DNA of 30,624 nucleotides from a virus, in the IMG/VR virus record IMGVR_UViG_3300042308_001333, positions 1 through 30,624 of that record; one strand, written 5' to 3'. The notes under the pieces were generated by a model. The model was not told where the DNA came from, did no database searches, and saw only the letters and a list, made by a program, of their open reading frames with translations. This document shows positions 4,172-12,711 of this stretch, piece after piece. Each line of letters begins with the position of its first letter. Position 1 is the stretch's first letter. The position numbers were made by a program, and so were the translations under genes.

Positions 4172-5716
4172 CTACCCCCACAAATCCAGCGTCAACCGCT
4201 TGCGCTTGCCATCGGCATCAATGCCCACGACCACGAAATCCCGCCCCGAGCCGTAGCCCAGCCGATCCGTCGTCAGCGTCACCACGTCGCCCAAATCAAC
4301 GGCCGCGTTGTCCTGCGTCAGCGCCACGCGGGTTTGCACGAAATCCCGTCGCACCTTGTGCAGCGCCAGCAACCGGGCCGCCTCCGTGGCCAAATCCGTG
4401 GCGTCCTGAATGGCCGTGTCGCGCACCATCTCCGGCGCCAGGAGGTGCTTGGTCTGCACGCTGGAATCGCTGGCCGTCACCTCGCGCCACGGCTGGAGCA
4501 AGCGGGCCTTGTCGGCTTCCGAGACAGCGCCGGCCAGGTCGGATCGGGCCAATTCGGTATAGGGCAGGCCGCGCAACTTCACGCGCCAGACCGGCACCCC
4601 GGCATCGGCATCGCGCGGCGCTTGGGTTTCGAGGGCGAGGATATCCACGTCCGTAAACTCGAACGTCGCCGAACCGGACGGCGCCACAAGCCGCCCGACC
4701 TGCCAGACGCCGGCACGATCCGGGGCGAGCCAGCCGCCCACCGATGCCAGCACGGTGTCGATCGCCTGTTGCCGCGTCGTCTCGCCCGTGAAGTAGGCGC
4801 CGCACTCGTAGCCCGCCGCGCTGGCGAGGGCCGTGAAGGTGGCGCTATCCAGATCGCCGCCCGCCACGCCGCATCGCTGGGTGAGGATGCGCGAGACGAT
4901 CTCGGCCGCGGTATCGACGTAGCCGCCGGTTGCGTCGCCGCGGGCATCCAGGGTGACGCGGCCAGACGGCGAGGCGCCCAGGCGAATGAGGCCAAGGGAG
5001 AGGCAGGTGTCATAGGCGCCGGCAGCCGGGGCGGTGGCTTCCATCGCGGCGAGGTTGGCGCGCGTGGTGCCGGCCGTGAGCGCCACACCCTGGTCATAGA
5101 CGGCATCCACAGCCTGCGCCGCGCCGTCGTGGAACTGGTAGATCAGCTTGGCCGTGTTCACCAGCACCGGTTCAATCTGGTAGCGCCGGCCAAACAGGAG
5201 CGGCTTGCGCTGGCCCTTGATGTCGTCCGCCGTGCCCTCGGCGCCGCTCGGCAGGCTGTTCGTGCCGGCGTAGAGCGTGGCCTGGAGCGGCTGGGTCAGG
5301 ATGTGCAGCTTGTCCCGCAGCCGGATCGTGGCATCCGCGGCGCCCACCGTGGCCTGTTCCGCCGTGCCGGTCAGCACCGTGGTGTAGCCGCTGGGATAGG
5401 CGGCGCCCTGCGGCCCTATCCGCACCACCACGGCGCGGCCGTCAATGCCGTAGTCGCGCAGGCTGGCCAGTTCTTGATCGAGGTTGTTGAGGACGATTTC
5501 GCCCGTGCCGACCGTGGCGCCGCCGGCCACGCGGGCGGAGGCGAACATGGTCCGCTTGAAGCTGATCGGCTGCATCAGGCGCGGGGCAAACCAGGCGTTC
5601 GCCGGGGCTTCGCTCGGCAGCGTCATCGTGCCCCGGCCGGAGGCATAGCGCAGGGTGGTGGTGGTGGCGCCGTCGTGGGCAGTGATCTCCACGAGGTAGG
5701 TCAGGGGGGTGGTCAT
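4172..5716 (-). CDS. Putative tail tip / baseplate protein (514 aa)
   Basis: ATG at 5716 overlaps the stop of the tape measure gene by 4 bases (ATGA), so it is co-translated with it. In siphophages the genes just after the tape measure encode the distal tail and tail-tip hub. The protein is 514 residues, beta-rich, beginning MTTPLTYLVEITAHDG. A region of about residues 90-200 (VVVRIGPQG, IRLRDKLHIL, RKPLLFGRR) is typical of tail-tip proteins that bind the tube end. The C-terminal region (about 420-514) has a DLATEAARLLALHKVRRDF helix and VDLGDVVTLTTDRLGYG, reminiscent of the hub-type fold. Peptidase motifs are not seen. The role as a tail-tip structural protein is well supported by position, less by sequence. 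Confidence 0.68.
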   Translation of the reverse strand: MTTPLTYLVEITAHDGATTTTLRYASGRGTMTLPSEAPANAWFAPRLMQPISFKRTMFASARVAGGATVGTGEIVLNNLDQELASLRDYGIDGRAVVVRIGPQGAAYPSGYTTVLTGTAEQATVGAADATIRLRDKLHILTQPLQATLYAGTNSLPSGAEGTADDIKGQRKPLLFGRRYQIEPVLVNTAKLIYQFHDGAAQAVDAVYDQGVALTAGTTRANLAAMEATAPAAGAYDTCLSLGLIRLGASPSGRVTLDARGDATGGYVDTAAEIVSRILTQRCGVAGGDLDSATFTALASAAGYECGAYFTGETTRQQAIDTVLASVGGWLAPDRAGVWQVGRLVAPSGSATFEFTDVDILALETQAPRDADAGVPVWRVKLRGLPYTELARSDLAGAVSEADKARLLQPWREVTASDSSVQTKHLLAPEMVRDTAIQDATDLATEAARLLALHKVRRDFVQTRVALTQDNAAVDLGDVVTLTTDRLGYGSGRDFVVVGIDADGKRKRLTLDLWG

Positions 5717-8700
5717 GCGGCGGTGCGCCGAATCACGGTGGTCTGCTCATCCAGCGCCCCGGCGACAAGCACGCCACTCGCCCGGGTTTCCTGCGCGACG
5801 GTAACGCCGACCTGCCGCAGCACGCCCTCGACCGCGACGAGCCGGCCGTTGATGGCCTGCAACTCGGCCAACATCGGCGCCACCACGCCACCACCGATGC
5901 CGAGGCTATCGGGCTGCGTCGGGCGGGTGCCGCCGTTCAGAACCTGGGCGGTGTAGCCGGTCAGCACGTTTTCGACGCTGCCGGGCCCGCCGTTGATGCC
6001 GCCGCCGTAGGTGGCGCCGGTCAGGATGCCGCCGAGGTTGTCGTTGGTGCCGCCGCGCCCCCCGCCGTAGGTGTAGCCCGGGGCCGGCACCGGGGTAGGC
6101 ACGCCAACCGGCGCCGTGTTGGCGGCGATGATCGCGAGATAGGTGGTCATGATGCCGTAGTAGGTGGCGAAGGCCGCGGCGTTGCCGACCTCAATCGCGT
6201 TGGCCACGGCCTGGCCGGATTGGATCGCGGCGCCGGCCGTGATGACGCTGGCGTTGGTGGCGGCGGCCTGCTGTGCTGCGATGCTGATCCCGCCGGCCAG
6301 TGCGCCGAGGCCTACGACGATGCTGCCATGGATGGTGGCGAGGCTGGTGTTGAGGTCCACCGCGGCGCCGTGGATGGTGGCGAGCGAGGTGTTCACGTCA
6401 CGGCCCGTTGCATCAATCGTGGCCAGGGCGCCGCCAAGCGAGAGCACGCTGCCGTTCATCACAGCGAGACCACCGGCCAGGATGCTAAGCCCGGCATTGC
6501 CTACCGCCTGCCCTTCTTGCAGCGCAGCCCCCGCGGCGACCACGGCGCGGGCTGTGATATCCTGCCCGGCAGCAAGCGCAGCCGCGCCGTTGGCCAGCAC
6601 GCCCAACCCAGCCACAAGGCTGCCGTGTACTGTGGCGATCGAGGTGTTCAGATCCGCCATCGCGCTATGCAAGGCGGCTAGGGACTGGTTGATGCCGGCA
6701 AGCCCCGCCAGCGTGGCGGCGCCGCTGGCCAGCACCTGCGCCGGGATCGCCCCTAGCAGGGCGTTGGCCACGGCTTGGCCTTCCTGCTGTGCGCGGCCGG
6801 TGGCCAGCACGTTGTCGTTGACCGCAGCCGTGAGACCGGCCGTGGTGGCCTGCGCCGCTCCGAGCCCGCCAAACCCGGCGACGATGCTGCCATGGATAGT
6901 GGCGAGGCTGCGGTTGAGGTCCACAACGCTGGTGTTGACGGCGCCGAGAGACTGGTTCACCGCGGCCAGGCCGGTTGCGGTGGCGGCGATGCTCTGGCCA
7001 AAGCCCGATACCAGCGTGCCGACCGTGTTGGCCGTGGCCTGCGCCGTCGCGGCGATATCGGCGGCCGAGGCGGCGGAGAAGGCACCGCCGGCCAGCTGCA
7101 CCACGTTGCCCGCCGGCAGGATCACGGTGGCGGTGTTGAGCGTGCCGGTGGTCAGCGCCTGCTGGATGGCCTGGAGCGCGGCGGTCTGCTGCGCATCGTA
7201 GGACTGGACGACGGGGAGGTTCGACAGCCCACCCGTGACCTGCTGCAAGATCGCCTGGAAGCCGGAGCCGCTGGCAAACATGTCCCGCCCGGCGCCCAGC
7301 AAGGCATCGGCGCTGCCGGTGATCCGGCCCAGCGCATCGCGGTCGCCACCCGTGGCCAGGAGGCGGTCACGCTCGAAATTGGCCTGTGCGGCGGCGAGGC
7401 GATCCGTGGGGGAGGCGCCGGCCGCGGTGCCGGTGGCGAGGTTGTCGAGGTACGCGCGAATCGTGCTGCCGGCTTGGCGCAGCGCCTGGGCAGCCTGCTC
7501 GCCGTAGCGTTCGATGATGGCGGCGCGTTCGGCGGCCTGGACTTCCTCCAGCGCCACCAGCCGGGCGGCCTTGTCGGCGGCGGTGAGGGCCAGGGCATCC
7601 AGCGACTTGCCGAACGCCTCCAGCTCCTGCCGTGCCGCCTCGGCCTGCCGCACCAGTTCGGCCTGCTGGGTGTCGCCACCCGCGGCGAGGCGGCGGATGG
7701 ACAGCGACACGTCGGACTGGCGCAGGGTTTCGGTGCGCTGCGCTTCCAACGCCGCGATTGCCTTGGCGCGTGCCTCGGTGAGGCCGGTTTCGGCAACGCC
7801 GTATTGCTGGGCCGATTTGGTAACGGCGTCGAAATTGTCGTTCACCGCCTGCATTTGGGCGGTGAACGCGGGGATCGCGTCGGTCGTCAGCCCCTTGATC
7901 GTGTCCTGGATGCGGATGAAGGACTCAACGAACTGTTGCAGCCCTTCCACGCCTTGGAAGTTCCGCTGCCGGAGTTGCTCGTCAAGATTCGTGTTGTCCA
8001 TCGCGGCGAAGCGGAGGCGGCTGAAGCCCTCGCCGATGGTGCCAGCGTCCGCCCAGGAATAGTCAGGGCCGTTCTTGTTGCCGCCGATGACCGAGGCGCC
8101 GGCCACGCGGAGATTGCGCGTGTTCAGGTATTCGTTGGTGGCGGCGACTTGCTGTTCTGCCGCCATGAAGGCGGCCTTGCCCTCTTCGTTGTAATATTCA
8201 TAGGAGATCGGCTTCAGGGCGGTGCCGAAGTCGTTGGTTCCGCCGACGGCTTCGTTGTAGGCGGTGGATTGGAAGCGCAGGCCGTAGCCGCGGACGGATT
8301 CGCCGGGGCCGAACAAGCCACCGAGGCCGCCGCCAGCAGCGCCGCCGATCAGGCCGCCGATCAGCGTGCCGACGCCGGGGATCAGGCTTCCGATGATGGC
8401 GCCGCCGAGGGCGCCGACACCCGAGCCAACCATACCCCCGGTCTGATTCCCGCCAAGCAGGTTGTTCAGCAGCATGCCAGCGCCGAAGCCCGCACCAGCG
8501 CCGCCCAAGACGCCGCCGAGCGTGACGCTGCTGGGGGCCATATAGCCCGCCGCGCCCATGGCGATAGACGGTTCAATTGCGACTGCCGGGCCCGCCCAAA
8601 GCGGAGTCGAAAGCAACCCGCCGCTGCCTGTCAGGCCGATAGAGTCCAATATGGAACGGCCGCCAAAAAGCTGACCAACCCCTAGTAGATCGCCAATACC

Positions 8701-10716
8701 GCCGCTGCCTCCGAATGCGCCAGAGAGCGTCTCACGCGGCCCCCTGGAGCCGACGAACAGACTGTTGAGCGCCGGGTTGATCAGCGCCAGCTTAGCGAAA
8801 TCCGAGACAACCGACACGGCAATGCCGCGCGCAACGGTCGCGAAGCTGACGGCCGACGCTTCGCCACGTGTGAACGCATCCACGATGGCATCGCCGACCC
8901 GATCGAAGGCGCGTTCGCCAATCGCCACCACCGCGTTCCAGCTGCGTTCAGTAAAGTCCTTCGCCCGCTTGGCGGCTTCCTCAGCTTCCTTGTTCGCCTT
9001 CTTCAGGTCATCCAGCTTGCGCACGCTGGCGCCGATGGCTTCGGCCGCGCGCTTTTCCGCTTCGGTGCGCTTGTCGATATCGGGGATGCCGGCGGCGCGG
9101 ATTTGGTTTTCGGTTTCGAGCGCAATGGCGGATTCGCGGCTGGCCTCGGTGCCGGCCAGGGTGCCGGCCAGGGCTTCCTCGGCGGCGCGCACCTGGAGGT
9201 TGAGCTTGTCGATGACGTCCTGGCGCTTTTCCGCGGACTTGGCGGCTTCAACGCCAGCCTTGCCTTCTTCCTCCGCCAGCTTCTTCAGCGCCTCGGCCTG
9301 CTCGCGCAGCACGCCGGCACGGGCTGCGGCGGCATCAAAGCGAGCGCCGGGCACGCCGGGGCTGCCTTGCAGCACGGAAACGCCGGCCGCCTCGGCCTCA
9401 TCGATCTTGCGCAGTTTCTCGGCGGTCTCGCGCTGGATCTTCAGCCGCTTGTCTGCGGCTTCCGCCACATCTCGCACTTCAGACGACAGGCGGGTGCGGC
9501 GGCTTTCGCTGGCCTGCCGGGCCGCGTCCTCGGCTTCGGCACGTTGGGATTCGCGATCCTGCCGGCGGATATCCTGCTGCCGGGCCAGGGCCTCGCGCAG
9601 TTCCTGGTCCGCGATCTCCATGGCTTGGCGCAGCCCCGGGGAAACGTCGCCGTAGGCGCTGGCAGCGCGCTCGGCGGCGACCTGCGCGGCCACCTGCTGC
9701 TGCCGGCGCTGTGCGGCGACCACGCCTTGGTCGGCGGCCTCGCGTTCATTCGGGGCGATCAGGCGGCCAGCAGCACCCAGAGCAGAAGCCCCGGCTTGCA
9801 TGTAGCGGGCGAAGGTCTGCGACAGGCCGGTGATGCGATCCAGCCGCGCGCCGAAGTCTTCCGTGGCGGCTATCAGAATATCCTTCGCCCGGCCCATCGT
9901 GACGGGCATCCGGCTGAATTCCTCGCCCATCTTCTCCGAGGCGCGGAGCAGGGCGGGGAAGACCTTCTCGGCGGTGAGCTGGCCCTCGCTGCCCATCTTG
10001 CGTAGCTCGCCGAGACCCACGCCGAGTTCGCGCGCCAGCGCCTGGGCGAGTTGCGGCATGTTCTCCAGGAGCGAGCGCAATTCGTCGCCCTGTAGCGTGC
10101 CGCTGGCCAGCGCCTGGCCCAGCTGCTGCACCGCGGCACCGGTTTCCTGCGCGCTGGCACCGGCCACGATGCCAGCTTTCTGGATGCCGGAGACCAGCTT
10201 CAACACCTGATCGCTAGTGGCGCCCACCTCTTTCGCGGCCACAGAGAAACGAGCGAAGCTGCCGGCGCTTTCGGCCACCGCCACGCCGGTTTGCTGGCTC
10301 AGCGCGAACAGCCGCTCATACACCGCCTGCGCCTGTCCCAGCCCGCCGGTGGCGCTGCTGAGGCGGGCCAAGGTGGCGGTAGCGGTATCGCCGGCCTTGG
10401 CGATGGCCACGGCTCCCACCGTTGCCGCCGCGCCGAGGGCGAGGAACCCCGCCGTCAAGCCAGAAGCCACACCAGCAACGCCGGTGAAGGTGCTGCCGAT
10501 ACGGCCGAGCGAGCCGCCCATGCCCACGAAGGCGCGGTTGGCCACATCGCTGGCAACGGCCAGGCGCTGCATCTCCGGCGCCGCCGCGGCCGAGGCAACG
10601 GCGACACGGCGCATCGCCGCCTCACCAGCCGGGCCAATTGCCTCGATCTGGCGGCGTGCCTGCTCGGCGCCTTCGGCCGAAATGCGGATGCCCACAGAGG
10701 GGCGCGAACCGCTCAT
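5713..10716 (-). CDS. Tape measure protein (1667 aa)
   Basis: This protein sets tail length and is packed inside the tail tube until DNA ejection. The start is ATG at 10716 with AGGAGG about 8 bases upstream; a longer frame from 10749 lacks a ribosome binding site. Residues about 70-290 form the conserved tape-measure N-terminal domain, including QKAGIVAGASAQETGAAVQQ, LQGDELRSLLENMPQLAQAL and TAEKVFPALLRASEKMGEEF. Residues about 330-610 are long charged coiled coils. A glycine-rich hydrophobic segment (about 740-810, with GGLIGGAAGGGLGGLFGPG) resembles the membrane-inserting part of tape measures. The C-terminal third carries three imperfect copies of a roughly 85-95 residue repeat. The tail would be about 250 nm at 0.15 nm per residue (general rule, not measured). 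The gene sits left of an unusual island, so its promoter or read-through source is unclear. Confidence 0.95.
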   Translation of the reverse strand: MSGSRPSVGIRISAEGAEQARRQIEAIGPAGEAAMRRVAVASAAAAPEMQRLAVASDVANRAFVGMGGSLGRIGSTFTGVAGVASGLTAGFLALGAAATVGAVAIAKAGDTATATLARLSSATGGLGQAQAVYERLFALSQQTGVAVAESAGSFARFSVAAKEVGATSDQVLKLVSGIQKAGIVAGASAQETGAAVQQLGQALASGTLQGDELRSLLENMPQLAQALARELGVGLGELRKMGSEGQLTAEKVFPALLRASEKMGEEFSRMPVTMGRAKDILIAATEDFGARLDRITGLSQTFARYMQAGASALGAAGRLIAPNEREAADQGVVAAQRRQQQVAAQVAAERAASAYGDVSPGLRQAMEIADQELREALARQQDIRRQDRESQRAEAEDAARQASESRRTRLSSEVRDVAEAADKRLKIQRETAEKLRKIDEAEAAGVSVLQGSPGVPGARFDAAAARAGVLREQAEALKKLAEEEGKAGVEAAKSAEKRQDVIDKLNLQVRAAEEALAGTLAGTEASRESAIALETENQIRAAGIPDIDKRTEAEKRAAEAIGASVRKLDDLKKANKEAEEAAKRAKDFTERSWNAVVAIGERAFDRVGDAIVDAFTRGEASAVSFATVARGIAVSVVSDFAKLALINPALNSLFVGSRGPRETLSGAFGGSGGIGDLLGVGQLFGGRSILDSIGLTGSGGLLSTPLWAGPAVAIEPSIAMGAAGYMAPSSVTLGGVLGGAGAGFGAGMLLNNLLGGNQTGGMVGSGVGALGGAIIGSLIPGVGTLIGGLIGGAAGGGLGGLFGPGESVRGYGLRFQSTAYNEAVGGTNDFGTALKPISYEYYNEEGKAAFMAAEQQVAATNEYLNTRNLRVAGASVIGGNKNGPDYSWADAGTIGEGFSRLRFAAMDNTNLDEQLRQRNFQGVEGLQQFVESFIRIQDTIKGLTTDAIPAFTAQMQAVNDNFDAVTKSAQQYGVAETGLTEARAKAIAALEAQRTETLRQSDVSLSIRRLAAGGDTQQAELVRQAEAARQELEAFGKSLDALALTAADKAARLVALEEVQAAERAAIIERYGEQAAQALRQAGSTIRAYLDNLATGTAAGASPTDRLAAAQANFERDRLLATGGDRDALGRITGSADALLGAGRDMFASGSGFQAILQQVTGGLSNLPVVQSYDAQQTAALQAIQQALTTGTLNTATVILPAGNVVQLAGGAFSAASAADIAATAQATANTVGTLVSGFGQSIAATATGLAAVNQSLGAVNTSVVDLNRSLATIHGSIVAGFGGLGAAQATTAGLTAAVNDNVLATGRAQQEGQAVANALLGAIPAQVLASGAATLAGLAGINQSLAALHSAMADLNTSIATVHGSLVAGLGVLANGAAALAAGQDITARAVVAAGAALQEGQAVGNAGLSILAGGLAVMNGSVLSLGGALATIDATGRDVNTSLATIHGAAVDLNTSLATIHGSIVVGLGALAGGISIAAQQAAATNASVITAGAAIQSGQAVANAIEVGNAAAFATYYGIMTTYLAIIAANTAPVGVPTPVPAPGYTYGGGRGGTNDNLGGILTGATYGGGINGGPGSVENVLTGYTAQVLNGGTRPTQPDSLGIGGGVVAPMLAELQAINGRLVAVEGVLRQVGVTVAQETRASGVLVAGALDEQTTVIRRTAA
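6170..6930 (-). repeat. Three imperfect repeats inside the tape measure gene
   Basis: The C-terminal part of the tape measure (about residues 1262-1515) repeats a unit that contains a GQAVANA-like helix, an Ala-rich stretch and a LNTSLATIHGS-like segment. Copies of the last motif lie near plus-strand positions 6310-6360, 6605-6660 and 6885-6921, about 260-290 bases apart. Tandem copies of this type in tape measures fit a helical rod grown by repeat duplication, but here the copies differ at many positions. Confidence 0.75.
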
Positions 10717-10782
10717 GGTGTAGCCTCCTCTGGCTAGTGGATTGCGCATGCGTTACGGTCACAGCCCTTTGGGGAGGGTGCG

Positions 10783-11163
10783 ATGCGGGCAGGCGTTGTT
10801 GTGGTGGTGGCGCTGTTGGCAGGGTGCGCCACAGCGGTTTTGCAATCGGATGATCCGCGGCGCGCGGTAGTGCTGGCGCCTTATCTCCGCGTAATCCCAC
10901 CCTTCGGGCAGGTTCACATACCGGAAGGGACAGTTTTGTATCCGGCCACCGTGGATGGGCAGCCGTCTTGGTGCTCCACTGCGCCGGTCTATTTTGTGCC
11001 TGGTGAGGCCCGCCCGCTATGCTTGTTTGATCCGAGCGGCGGAAGCCAGACCGAGGGATGGTTCAAGACTGCGTATGTCGCCGGTTCATTGGCAAGCTTA
11101 CGGTATGATGTCGATGTCCCATATCGAGTGGGACAGCGGCCGGCGCTGCCTCCTCGGCAATAA
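10783..11163 (+). CDS. Putative lipoprotein (126 aa), plus-strand, unknown function
   Basis: This is the only intact plus-strand gene I support. GGGGAGG precedes the ATG at about 5-8 bases. The N-terminus (MRAGVVVVVALLAGC) is a signal peptide with the lipobox LLAGC, so Cys15 would be lipidated and the mature protein anchored in a membrane. The mature part has four further Cys/Trp-containing beta-like stretches (WCSTAPVYFVPGE, RPLCLFDPSGG) and no known domain that I recognise. It is convergent with the cassette and array at its right. Membrane-anchored phage lipoproteins often change the host surface or block superinfection (family knowledge for such genes generally); that role is only a hypothesis here. 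Its promoter must lie in the short gap 10717-10775, where I see no clear -35/-10 pair. Confidence 0.72.
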   Translation: MRAGVVVVVALLAGCATAVLQSDDPRRAVVLAPYLRVIPPFGQVHIPEGTVLYPATVDGQPSWCSTAPVYFVPGEARPLCLFDPSGGSQTEGWFKTAYVAGSLASLRYDVDVPYRVGQRPALPPRQ

Positions 11164-11185
11164 GGGCGGCGCTTCGGCGCCGCCC
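11164..11185. terminator. Perfect 9-bp hairpin with TTCG loop
   Basis: The stem GGGCGGCGC pairs with GCGCCGCCC around a TTCG loop on the plus strand (CGAA on the minus strand). It follows the plus-strand lipoprotein stop at 11161-11163 directly. It also lies at the far end of the minus-strand pentamer array, where TTATTG follows on the minus strand. There is no long T-run on either strand, so it may be a bidirectional terminator, a transcript-end stabiliser, or a structural element of the array RNA. Confidence 0.7.
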
Positions 11186-11193
11186 TGCTAACT

Positions 11194-11374
11194 TAGCCTG
11201 CCGTGCCCGGCCCAGCCTAGCCGAGCCATGCCCAACCTGGCCTCGCCATGCCTGCCAGACCACGCCTGGCCTCGCCGAGCCGTGCCCCGCCCCGCCATGC
11301 CTCACCTTGCCTGCCACGCCTCGCCTTGCCTAGCCAAGCCGTGCCTAGCCTCGCCATGCCTGCCCTGCCATGTC
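11194..11374 (-). repeat. Degenerate GGC-NN pentamer array (37 units, 181 bp)
   Basis: On the minus strand the sequence is a head-to-tail run of pentamers GGCNN, in which the last two bases vary freely. I count 33 pentamers and 4 tetramers (GGCA), exactly filling 11194-11374. Three pentamers begin GGT and the first unit is GACAT; all others begin GGC. The tetramers divide the array into blocks of 9, 11 and 10 pentamers. The array starts 7 bases after the stop codon of the 155-residue gene of the three-gene cassette, in the same transcription direction, so it would form its 3' untranslated RNA. It ends shortly before the UUCG hairpin. No coding role is likely because five-base periodicity shifts frame continually. 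Tracts of this general type occur in other phage genomes in my memory; their function is, to my knowledge, not established. Confidence 0.9.
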
Positions 11375-11381
11375 CTTGCAA

Positions 11382-11849
11382 TCAGCGGCGGGCTGCCGCG
11401 ATCGCCTCCGTCACCGCCGAGAATTCGGCGAACTCGCCGTACTTCGACAGCCACACTTCCAGATCGGTCCAGCCTTGCCGGATGACCTGACCGCGTAGTT
11501 CCTTCTCGCCCAACACGACATGCCGGGCTTCGTATCCAAGGCCCACATCCGGCCTTTCGACCGAGACGAAGGCTCGCTTCGGCTCCGACACGCCGCGAGG
11601 TGCGACCTTCACCACGATGGCGCCGACGAGTTGCCGCGCCTGCGCTTCCCGGTGCCGTTCCGCCGCGATGCTGTCGTCCCACTCGAAGGCGCGGTGCAGC
11701 ACCGAGGTATCCGGCCGGGCTGCATCCACCACCATGGCCGGGGTGAGGGAGCCGTTGGCACGTTGCCGCAGCAGTTCGATAGTCTCGCCGGCCTGCTGGG
11801 CGTTGATGCAAAACCGGGCACCAGACTTGAACTCGTAACGGAAGCTCAT
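11382..11849 (-). CDS. Conserved phage protein, third gene of array cassette (155 aa)
   Basis: ATG at 11849 overlaps the stop of the 198-residue gene (ATGA). Residues about 1-50 form a small region with RANGSLTPAMVVDAARPD, then VLHRAFEWDDSIAAERHREA (about 50-70), a pattern I recall from widespread uncharacterised phage proteins (LTP..VVD.A, FEWDD..AAE). The middle (about 72-120) has beta-like strands (LVGAIVVKVAPRGVSE, RAFVSVERPDVG) and the C-terminus is helical (WLSKYGEFAEFSAVTEAIAAARR). No catalytic motif is recognised. It always seems to travel with a partner like the 198-residue protein in remembered phage loci, so the two may form a complex. The pentamer array starts 7 bases after its stop codon. 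Confidence 0.75.
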   Translation of the reverse strand: MSFRYEFKSGARFCINAQQAGETIELLRQRANGSLTPAMVVDAARPDTSVLHRAFEWDDSIAAERHREAQARQLVGAIVVKVAPRGVSEPKRAFVSVERPDVGLGYEARHVVLGEKELRGQVIRQGWTDLEVWLSKYGEFAEFSAVTEAIAAARR

Positions 11850-12442
11850 GCGCCCTCGCCCTCCGTGGCGACATGGAACATGCCGTAGCTGCCGTCGCGC
11901 TCCGGCCGCCACTCCCCGACGCCAACACCGAAGCCGGCGCTGTTGAACAGGTGCACGATCTGCTCGGCGGAGAGCGCCCCGGCGTTGAACCGGATGGAGA
12001 GGTCCACCGACCATTCGGTGAATTGGCCGCGGTGACGAATGTCCGCGCCGCCCATGGCGATCTTGACCATGTCCTCCCGCGGCGAGGGCGTGCCGTTGAT
12101 GCGGGCCAACTCGCCGGGGATGTGGAAGGCGCCACGCGCTTCCGTCATTCTCAGGCCATCCACGAAGCGGCAGGCGGACACGGCCGCCGCCTTGAATGCG
12201 ACGGTGGGAAAGCCGTAGCCGCGGCCGTCCGGCATCGGGTAGAGCGAGGCCTCGTAGTCGGCTTGCGGGTCCTTCGCCTCCCTCGCCGCCTTGGCCCGTT
12301 TCATCTGCTTGTCCAGCATCTGCTTCTTCGCCTTCTCGCTCCAGGCGTGGCAGATCAGCGGGCTGTCACCAACGAGACGCAGGCCCATCACGCGAAGGTC
12401 AAGGGGCGGCAGCTGGATTGCCTGGGTGGGTGACTTGCTCAT
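11846..12442 (-). CDS. Conserved phage protein, possible RAMP/Cas7-like RRM fold (198 aa)
   Basis: ATG at 12442 shares a base with the upstream stop (TGATG). The protein starts with an acidic-hydrophobic strand and DSPLICHAWSEKAKKQML (about 28-45). It then has a Lys/Arg-rich helix, GFPTVAFKAAAVSACR (about 77-92), HIPGELARI, REDMVKIAMGGADIRHRG, a strand pair WSVDLSIRFNAG (about 145-157), and a C-terminal glycine-rich segment AGFGVGVGEWRPERDGSYGMF (read in pieces, about 169-189). The order of an early P-L strand, a 'pG/P..aFKaA' helix and a late glycine-rich loop before a final strand resembles the layout of RAMP proteins such as Cas7/Csf2. This is pattern reasoning, not a search. If correct, it would be a nucleic-acid-binding, possibly filament-forming protein. 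An annealing or recombination protein is the main alternative. Confidence 0.7.
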   Translation of the reverse strand: MSKSPTQAIQLPPLDLRVMGLRLVGDSPLICHAWSEKAKKQMLDKQMKRAKAAREAKDPQADYEASLYPMPDGRGYGFPTVAFKAAAVSACRFVDGLRMTEARGAFHIPGELARINGTPSPREDMVKIAMGGADIRHRGQFTEWSVDLSIRFNAGALSAEQIVHLFNSAGFGVGVGEWRPERDGSYGMFHVATEGEGA

Positions 12443-12711
12443 CACACCACCTCCTGCGCAGCGGCGATCCGGTTGAGGTCGCCCAGGATGCCGCGCGCAA
12501 GCCGGGCATCCGTGGATGGCGCATGACGATGCCATGGCATACCCATGATGCTGTCCAGGCTCTCCTCGTCCGTGGCGTCAATCTGCCCATAGGTCCAGCG
12601 CAGCGCCCGGACTTTCACCAGTATGCCTTCCATCGTCACAGGCGCGTGTTTCTCGATTTGCCGAACCACGGCGCTGGTTCGGTCCATGGCGGCGCTGGCG
12701 GCCTCGGACAT
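12442..12711 (-). CDS. Hypothetical protein, first gene of array cassette (89 aa)
   Basis: ATG at 12711 begins MSEAASAAMDRTSAVV. Residues 1-30 are helical and acidic. The middle has APVTMEGILVKVRALRW (about 28-44), and the C-terminal part (about 65-89) is a helix with DARLARGILGDLNRIA. The last base of its stop is shared with the start of the next gene (TGATG), so the cassette is co-translated. It is rich in small and charged residues with no domain I know. The 110 bases upstream hold a plus-strand gene remnant and no clear promoter, so transcription may come from the late operon to the right. Confidence 0.65.
   Translation of the reverse strand: MSEAASAAMDRTSAVVRQIEKHAPVTMEGILVKVRALRWTYGQIDATDEESLDSIMGMPWHRHAPSTDARLARGILGDLNRIAAAQEVV

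Follow-up and report, generated by a model that had tools for sequence, protein, structure and literature searches.

The window analyzed here is a virus record of 30,624 bases (IMG/VR IMGVR_UViG_3300042308_001333), and positions 11194–11374 of its minus strand hold a tandem array of GGYNN pentamers interrupted by four GGCA tetramers. We read this element, with a probability of about 0.93, as a guide array of the VIPR (Viral Interference Programmable Repeat) kind that a tailed phage carries in its late operon, with three GGCA-divided guides that would be bound by the RAMP protein Vipr and silence competitors. The array belongs to this recently described kind and not to the type II form of Escherichia phage SUSP1. 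Division by GGCA characterizes one particular form of VIPR, that of the window, and is linked to the phrog_15946 family of candidate accessory (vap) genes. According to a 2026 preprint (PMC13142463), a VIPR system combines Vipr, vap, and vrRNAs and is directed at competing phages. The vrRNAs consist of 9–16 YNNGG repeats in which GGY is fixed and NN is hypervariable; NN pairs with double-stranded DNA with a 1-nt skip in the target, and RNA binding, skip-1 recognition, and repression were reported for SUSP1 and P. fulva. GGCA is not mentioned in the main text of that preprint, its supplement lying outside this check.

The array and the genes beside it

The array lies downstream of two overlapping genes of the minus strand. 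The features concerned are as follows.

11194–11374, minus strand: vrRNA-type guide array, 33 pentamers (GGYNN; outermost GACAT) and four GGCA, from the sequence
11361–11364, minus strand: GGCA tetramer 1, putative separator, from the sequence and the rule in related arrays
11316–11360, minus strand: putative guide block 1, 9 NN (AT GA TA AC TT TA AA GA GT), from the sequence
11312–11315, minus strand: GGCA tetramer 2, from the sequence
11257–11311, minus strand: putative guide block 2, 11 NN (AA GA AT GG GG AC TC GA CA GT CT), from the sequence
11253–11256, minus strand: GGCA tetramer 3, from the sequence
11203–11252, minus strand: putative guide block 3, 10 NN (AT GA CA TG AT TC TA TG CG AC), from the sequence
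11199–11202, minus strand: GGCA tetramer 4, from the sequence
11846–12535, minus strand: vipr gene (RAMP/Cas7-like, phrog_4652), 229 aa, from phmmer, profile, AlphaFold model, and Csm3 matches
11382–11849, minus strand: candidate vap gene, 155 aa, phrog_15946, from adjacency and recurrence; there is a 4-base overlap with the vipr stop codon

Direct reading of the 181 nt gives 33 pentamers and four tetramers. From 11374 down to 11194, 5' to 3' on the minus strand, the order is GACAT GGCAG, GGCA, 9 pentamers, GGCA, 11 pentamers, GGCA, 10 pentamers, GGCA, and GGCTA. A sequence-only reading had parsed the array in this way, as GGC plus two free bases with four GGCA and blocks of 9, 11, and 10, and the parse was correct; blocks 1 and 3 indeed open alike, with GGCA GGCAT GGCGA. 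Its statement that departures from GGC are nearly all C to T was also borne out. The first pentamer, GACAT, is the only non-GGY unit among the 33, and the other 32 comprise 29 GGC and 3 GGT, both G positions being kept without exception. Only C to T is seen among these inner units because the scaffold is GGY.

The array had a GGY-chain score of 32.8; the highest score among 50 Markov-1 simulated windows, both strands included, was 5.0 (4.0 in a smaller simulation of 12 windows on one strand), and no second array reached the threshold of 4.5 in the whole window. The NN positions use 14 of the 16 dinucleotides. In the comparison with a random model that the sequence-only reading had proposed, their entropy was 3.61 bits, as for independent N1 and N2 (3.58 ± 0.10), and neighbouring units showed 17 matches against 15.9 ± 3.3 after shuffling, that is, no extra likeness. 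Slippage or decay from a single unit is therefore unsupported, since the NN are diverse and the neighbours unlike. A search of 10701–11800 against Rfam gave no match. Repeats of the CRISPR type, of 20 nt or more and parting unique contiguous spacers, are absent at the array, whose separators have only 4 nt.

By sequence comparison, the 11846–12535 product is clearly homologous to Vipr of SUSP1, the RAMP protein of VIPR systems. When the 229-aa protein was compared with solved chains by phmmer, the sole significant match was 36pp, 'SUSP1 Vipr protein' (E = 1.7e-5), and a profile of 40 relatives, with the protein of the window as its first sequence, matched PDB 36pp at E = 2.5e-37 over positions 1–189. 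A possible alternative start at 12442 gives a protein of 198 aa, which was the form used for alignment and folding. Arg138, Trp144, Gly170, Gly174, Arg179, and Gly187 are invariant in the 40 sequences, all of which matched phrog_4652. The AlphaFold2 model is confident (predicted local distance difference test score 91.1, predicted TM-score 0.85) and resembles Csm3 (Foldseek E = 1.2e-5; VIA Z score 11.8, 152 aligned, 3.4 Å); 36pp was not among the fold-search matches listed, the fold library ending in April 2026. Like the Vipr proteins that characterize VIPR, the protein of the window is a stand-alone RAMP homologue with a G-loop. None of the 40 relatives matched Pfam or PADLOC at E 0.001. As to cas genes, vipr and the candidate vap had no Pfam match and the Vipr set no PADLOC match, the other open reading frames (ORFs) of the window not being scanned as a set. 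The sequence-only reading had assigned no function to the array. The neighbouring Vipr gene is the reason for assigning one here: because a Vipr homologue is encoded alongside, the array is taken as a vrRNA guide array with a GGY scaffold, an NN code, and three guides.

The gene at 11382–11849 is a candidate for the VIPR accessory vap, as judged from its position next to vipr and its recurrence at related loci; SUSP1 vap1 was the only gene with which it was compared directly. Its product had no Pfam match, and its confident predicted model resembled no known fold (best Foldseek E 0.48, best VIA Z score 2.9), an absence that in these searches proves nothing.

GGCA tetramers in related arrays

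Viral contigs were scanned for eight GGCNN units, which gave at least 120 stretches, and the frequencies below describe that sample; bacterial genome contigs were scanned with a GGCA-containing pattern, which gave 37. The addition of four phage records and of the window itself brought the collection to 250 arrays in 154 loci, and 227 merged arrays were cut to 203 non-redundant ones by removing those that shared 25-mers. A vipr gene, a vap family gene, or both are present at 110 of the 154 loci. These loci contain 201 arrays, 199 of which have their GGC strand in common with the closest vipr or vap family gene. The third position of the inner pentamers in the non-redundant arrays is C in 5015 cases, T in 279, A in 89, and G in 21. 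In the window and in related arrays alike, GGY is thus kept while NN is hypervariable, and GGY/NN tandem units lie beside vipr, the window blocks of 9, 11, and 10 falling in the range of 9–16 units per guide. Across 12 related mycobacteriophage records, the variable sites in shared blocks of equal length were all in NN (3/44) and none in GGY (0/66). The earlier proposal that GGC is selected rather than formed by slippage agrees with this pattern of a kept GGY and near-random NN.

GGCA accounts for 368 of the 447 tetramers in the collected arrays; the first N of the pentamers is A in only about one third. Of 280 intervals between successive GGCA, 209 span 7–14 units and 86 span 9 or 10. Among the 78 arrays with at least two GGCA, 34 end exactly one unit past the last and 36 begin with 0–1 unit before the first. 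Because the bacterial loci had been selected by a GGCA pattern, the viral scan was recounted alone: GGCA made up 179 of 241 tetramers, the interval was 7–14 units in 105 of 136 cases, and 36 of 157 arrays had at least two GGCA. Arrays of this last kind occurred in 16 of 24 viral loci with both vipr and the vap family, in 6 of 54 that have only vipr, and in 6 of 27 that have neither. The block structure noticed in the window therefore recurs in its composition and spacing; as a general property of such arrays it does not hold, since only 88 of the 203 contain any GGCA, and the tetramers belong to one array form.

Whole GGCA-bounded blocks are gained or lost among the 12 mycobacteriophage records, which show the block orders ABCDE (five records), ABDE (one), ABFIE (three), ABFGHIE (one), and BJKLE (two); block E is constant. 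Loci L174 and L177 were omitted from this comparison, L174 being as long as Donkeykong and L177 having no array in the DNA examined. These changes represent few independent events, as some of the phages are near-identical, and single pentamers are also gained or lost within blocks. Taken together, the composition, spacing, and block exchange point to GGCA as the separator between guides. A wider proposal, which we hold at even odds, is that in the VIPR branch defined by the phrog_15946 vap, GGCA acts as a minimal 'repeat' in contiguous separator–guide–separator arrays, with gain and loss of whole cassettes and cutting at or near GGCA, and that prophages use such arrays to shut off rival vipr genes.

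Two comparisons between arrays were set aside. The blastn similarity of the window array to the mycobacteriophage arrays (~72%) is expected from the shared GGC phase alone and was rejected as a sign of common descent, and a pairwise substitution test was discarded because unrelated arrays have 15-mers in common. The collection also includes vipr-linked GGCNN arrays that are long and have few or no 4-nt steps (L014, L041, L079, and others; L014 has 120 GGC units and one 4-nt step), which are perhaps another VIPR array type. Low-complexity GGCAG/GGCCG arrays from Actinoplanes and Cohnella (L157, 6628–6857; L161, 2236–2417), with no vipr in the DNA examined, are probably simple repeats. The hypothetical proteins annotated across VIPR arrays in two phage records (L129, 2849–3235; L183, 1127–1291) are probably spurious genes.

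Decoding of the guides, proposed mechanism, and alternatives

When 1416 ten-unit segments of the arrays were compared with the collected locus DNA (arrays masked, low-diversity segments excluded), one guide in an array of Mycobacterium szulgai (L148, 3513–3696) stood out. This guide lies directly after a GGCA and, read as NN–skip–NN, agrees at 10 of 10 NN (20/20 bases) with the vipr genes of mycobacteriophages Saal and Donkeykong and at 11 of 11 NN (22/22 bases) with the vipr of L092. Its NN fall on codon positions 1 and 2, and the skipped base on the wobble position. When IMG/VR was scanned for exact matches to the 20-base gapped pattern of this guide, seven contigs were found, and all seven matches lie inside vipr genes. 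The matched loci include L128, L129, L092, and L177, of which L092 and L177 are other viral contigs beside the mycobacteriophages; seven of the nine matched loci come from a single phage group, and one of these is probably a second record of Donkeykong. Since L148 itself has no match, the guide is not a self-target. The six NN that precede the GGCA agree with the target at 3 (L092), 4 (Saal group), and 5 (L177) of 12 positions, where about 3 are expected. The match, as a sequence correspondence, supports both the 1-nt skip and the separator role in an array of the same kind as that of the window, and it is suggestive of an arms race between VIPR systems, one being aimed at the vipr gene of another. 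Besides three overlapping M. szulgai segments, the segments with at most one mismatch comprised two at skip 1, two at skip 0, and one in reversed order, and these were treated as chance. With whole blocks against 1.35 Mb of collected DNA, the best mismatch fraction was 0.2 or less for 136 of 388 at skip 1, 92 at skip 0, and 82 at skip 2, the skip-3 column finding the arrays themselves, which were left unmasked; this search leans to skip 1, a preference that may reflect codon composition. A second M. szulgai guide had one match at three mismatches in 60 Mycobacterium genomes and none for its reversed control, which is near chance by estimate.

Here, we propose a mechanism for the window system. 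The vipr gene and the candidate vap gene are read in the same direction as the array, and the three would form a VIPR system placed in a tailed phage's late operon. The array would be transcribed, and Vipr subunits would coat the RNA, one per GGYNN unit. The protein would hold GGY, leaving NN to pair with double-stranded DNA, and one target base would be skipped between dinucleotides. Processing at or near GGCA may cut the RNA into guides of 9, 11, and 10 NN, with targets of ~27, 33, and 30 bp, respectively. The complex would then silence genes that belong to a competing phage or mobile element.

Several observations weigh against this reading. The candidate vap is unrelated to SUSP1 vap1 by hhalign (probability 0.2), no vipr or vap was found in the examined DNA of 44 of the 154 array loci (some of these arrays lie at contig ends and some are of low complexity), and 115 of the 203 non-redundant arrays, such as L013 and L051, have no GGCA. 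The unit immediately upstream of GGCA also agrees with the target in the Saal group. A clear target was found for one guide only, that of M. szulgai. In exact scans of viral contigs, blocks 2 and 3 of the window gave no match and block 1 gave two, both AT-rich; the first 9 NN of block 2 gave none, and those of block 3 gave one, which is AT-rich and out of codon phase. Block 2 had one match at three mismatches in 289 alphaproteobacterial genomes, as did its reversed control. For two Saal guides, nothing convincing was obtained: one had a single match at three mismatches in 158 genomes (control 0) and the other had none.

The arrays without GGCA and the Saal-group unit upstream of it are what would be expected if the guides are real but overlap as 'staggered' vrRNAs, and GGCA is a one-base deletion tolerated within them instead of a separator. 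We consider this unlikely. It does not account for the predominance of GGCA among the tetramers or for its regular spacing; moreover, blocks are gained and lost at GGCA, the best target match begins right after one, many arrays begin or end there, and GGCA is linked to one vap family.

It is very improbable that the array is a decayed microsatellite, grown by slippage and without function. The tandem 5-nt units and the low complexity of some GGC arrays (the GGCAG/GGCCG runs of L157 and L161) would fit such an origin, but GGY is kept while NN is near random, adjacent units are unlike, the same unit rule stands beside vipr genes in many viral contigs, and the GGCA rule applies.

Translation of the array as part of a protein deserves still less credence: a 5-nt unit is largely open in every frame and ORFs are annotated over arrays (Donkeykong gene 48, BobaPhett gene 51), but tetramers and NN = TA shift frames or create stops, blocks change freely, and 197 of 250 arrays have an upstream ORF of at least 60 codons that ends nearby (gap of 0–9 nt in 58 and 10–19 nt in 39; 35 of these ORFs are of the 11382–11849 family and 53 of the 11846–12535 family). 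Equally implausible is the idea that the GCC strand of the array serves the convergent plus-strand gene as a C-rich terminator or insulator; an ORF of the plus strand (10783–11163) does end beside the array with a hairpin between them, but the annotated genes flanking arrays are co-directional in Saal, Donkeykong, Pipp, and Cy-LDV1, and the code-like NN and the target match would be left unexplained.

The tape measure (5713–10749), portal, capsid, and terminase genes of the window are on the minus strand. A likely host is an alphaproteobacterium because the terminase is nearest to sequences from Shinella (60%, plasmid-collection records) and Rhodobacter phages (56%, phages). The ORF at 10783–11163 is the single gene of the opposite strand within this late operon. 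Its N terminus is lipoprotein-like (MRAGVVVVVALLAGC, lipobox judged by eye), and it had no PHROG or Pfam match. Between it and the 3' end of the array lies one further feature.

11164–11185, unstranded: hairpin of 9 G–C pairs with a 4-nt loop, from sequence and fold

The hairpin may be a two-way terminator or the tail of the last guide; it was not called by the terminator scan, which requires a T run. There is no tail between the window blocks, and as the hairpin follows the last GGCA, a tail on the last guide may exist. The 3' flanks of 68 GGCA arrays gave a mean z of −0.37, with values below −2 in four.

Comparison with known systems

The window shares with SUSP1 VIPR (type II; PMC13142463) a Vipr homologue (E = 2.5e-37), GGY/NN pentamers with 9–16 NN per guide, a small gene after vipr, and GGY on the gene strand. 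The guides of SUSP1 are separate units rich in GGT, each closed by a 6-nt step and a tail, whereas the window array is contiguous, GGC-rich, GGCA-divided, and tail-less between blocks. In two of the four published SUSP1 guides, those caught by our parse, there are no tetramers; the window has four GGCA. The vap1 of SUSP1 is unrelated to the candidate vap by hhalign, and the window lacks the conserved structured 3' tail on each guide and the vap1 that define type II.

Closer counterparts are the loci of mycobacteriophages Saal and Donkeykong and Gordonia phages Pipp and Ecliptus, annotated as hypothetical proteins, which combine vipr with GGCA-divided GGC arrays. The vap family is present in the Gordonia phages and, by hidden Markov model search, in Saal. 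In Ecliptus (L188, 2579–3892), vipr, the array, and the vap family gene are located between the tail assembly chaperone and tape measure genes, and the window locus likewise adjoins a tape measure gene. These systems differ from the window in gene order, which varies, and their Vipr proteins are about 37–44% identical to that of the window.

Class 1 CRISPR systems, with a Csm3/Cas7 backbone and a crRNA array, resemble the window in the RAMP fold and in guide blocks bounded by a constant unit. They differ in that the window has no repeats of 20 nt or more, its guide pairing would be gapped, and its constant unit has 4 nt. VIPR has been proposed as an ancestor of the RAMP systems of CRISPR. Should GGCA indeed divide guides, it would become possible to separate and decode the guides of many arrays in public phage collections, and cassette exchange among near-identical phages would offer a natural test of how guide arrays evolved before dedicated adaptation genes. 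A CRISPR-array-like organisation would then exist within the proposed ancestor of CRISPR.
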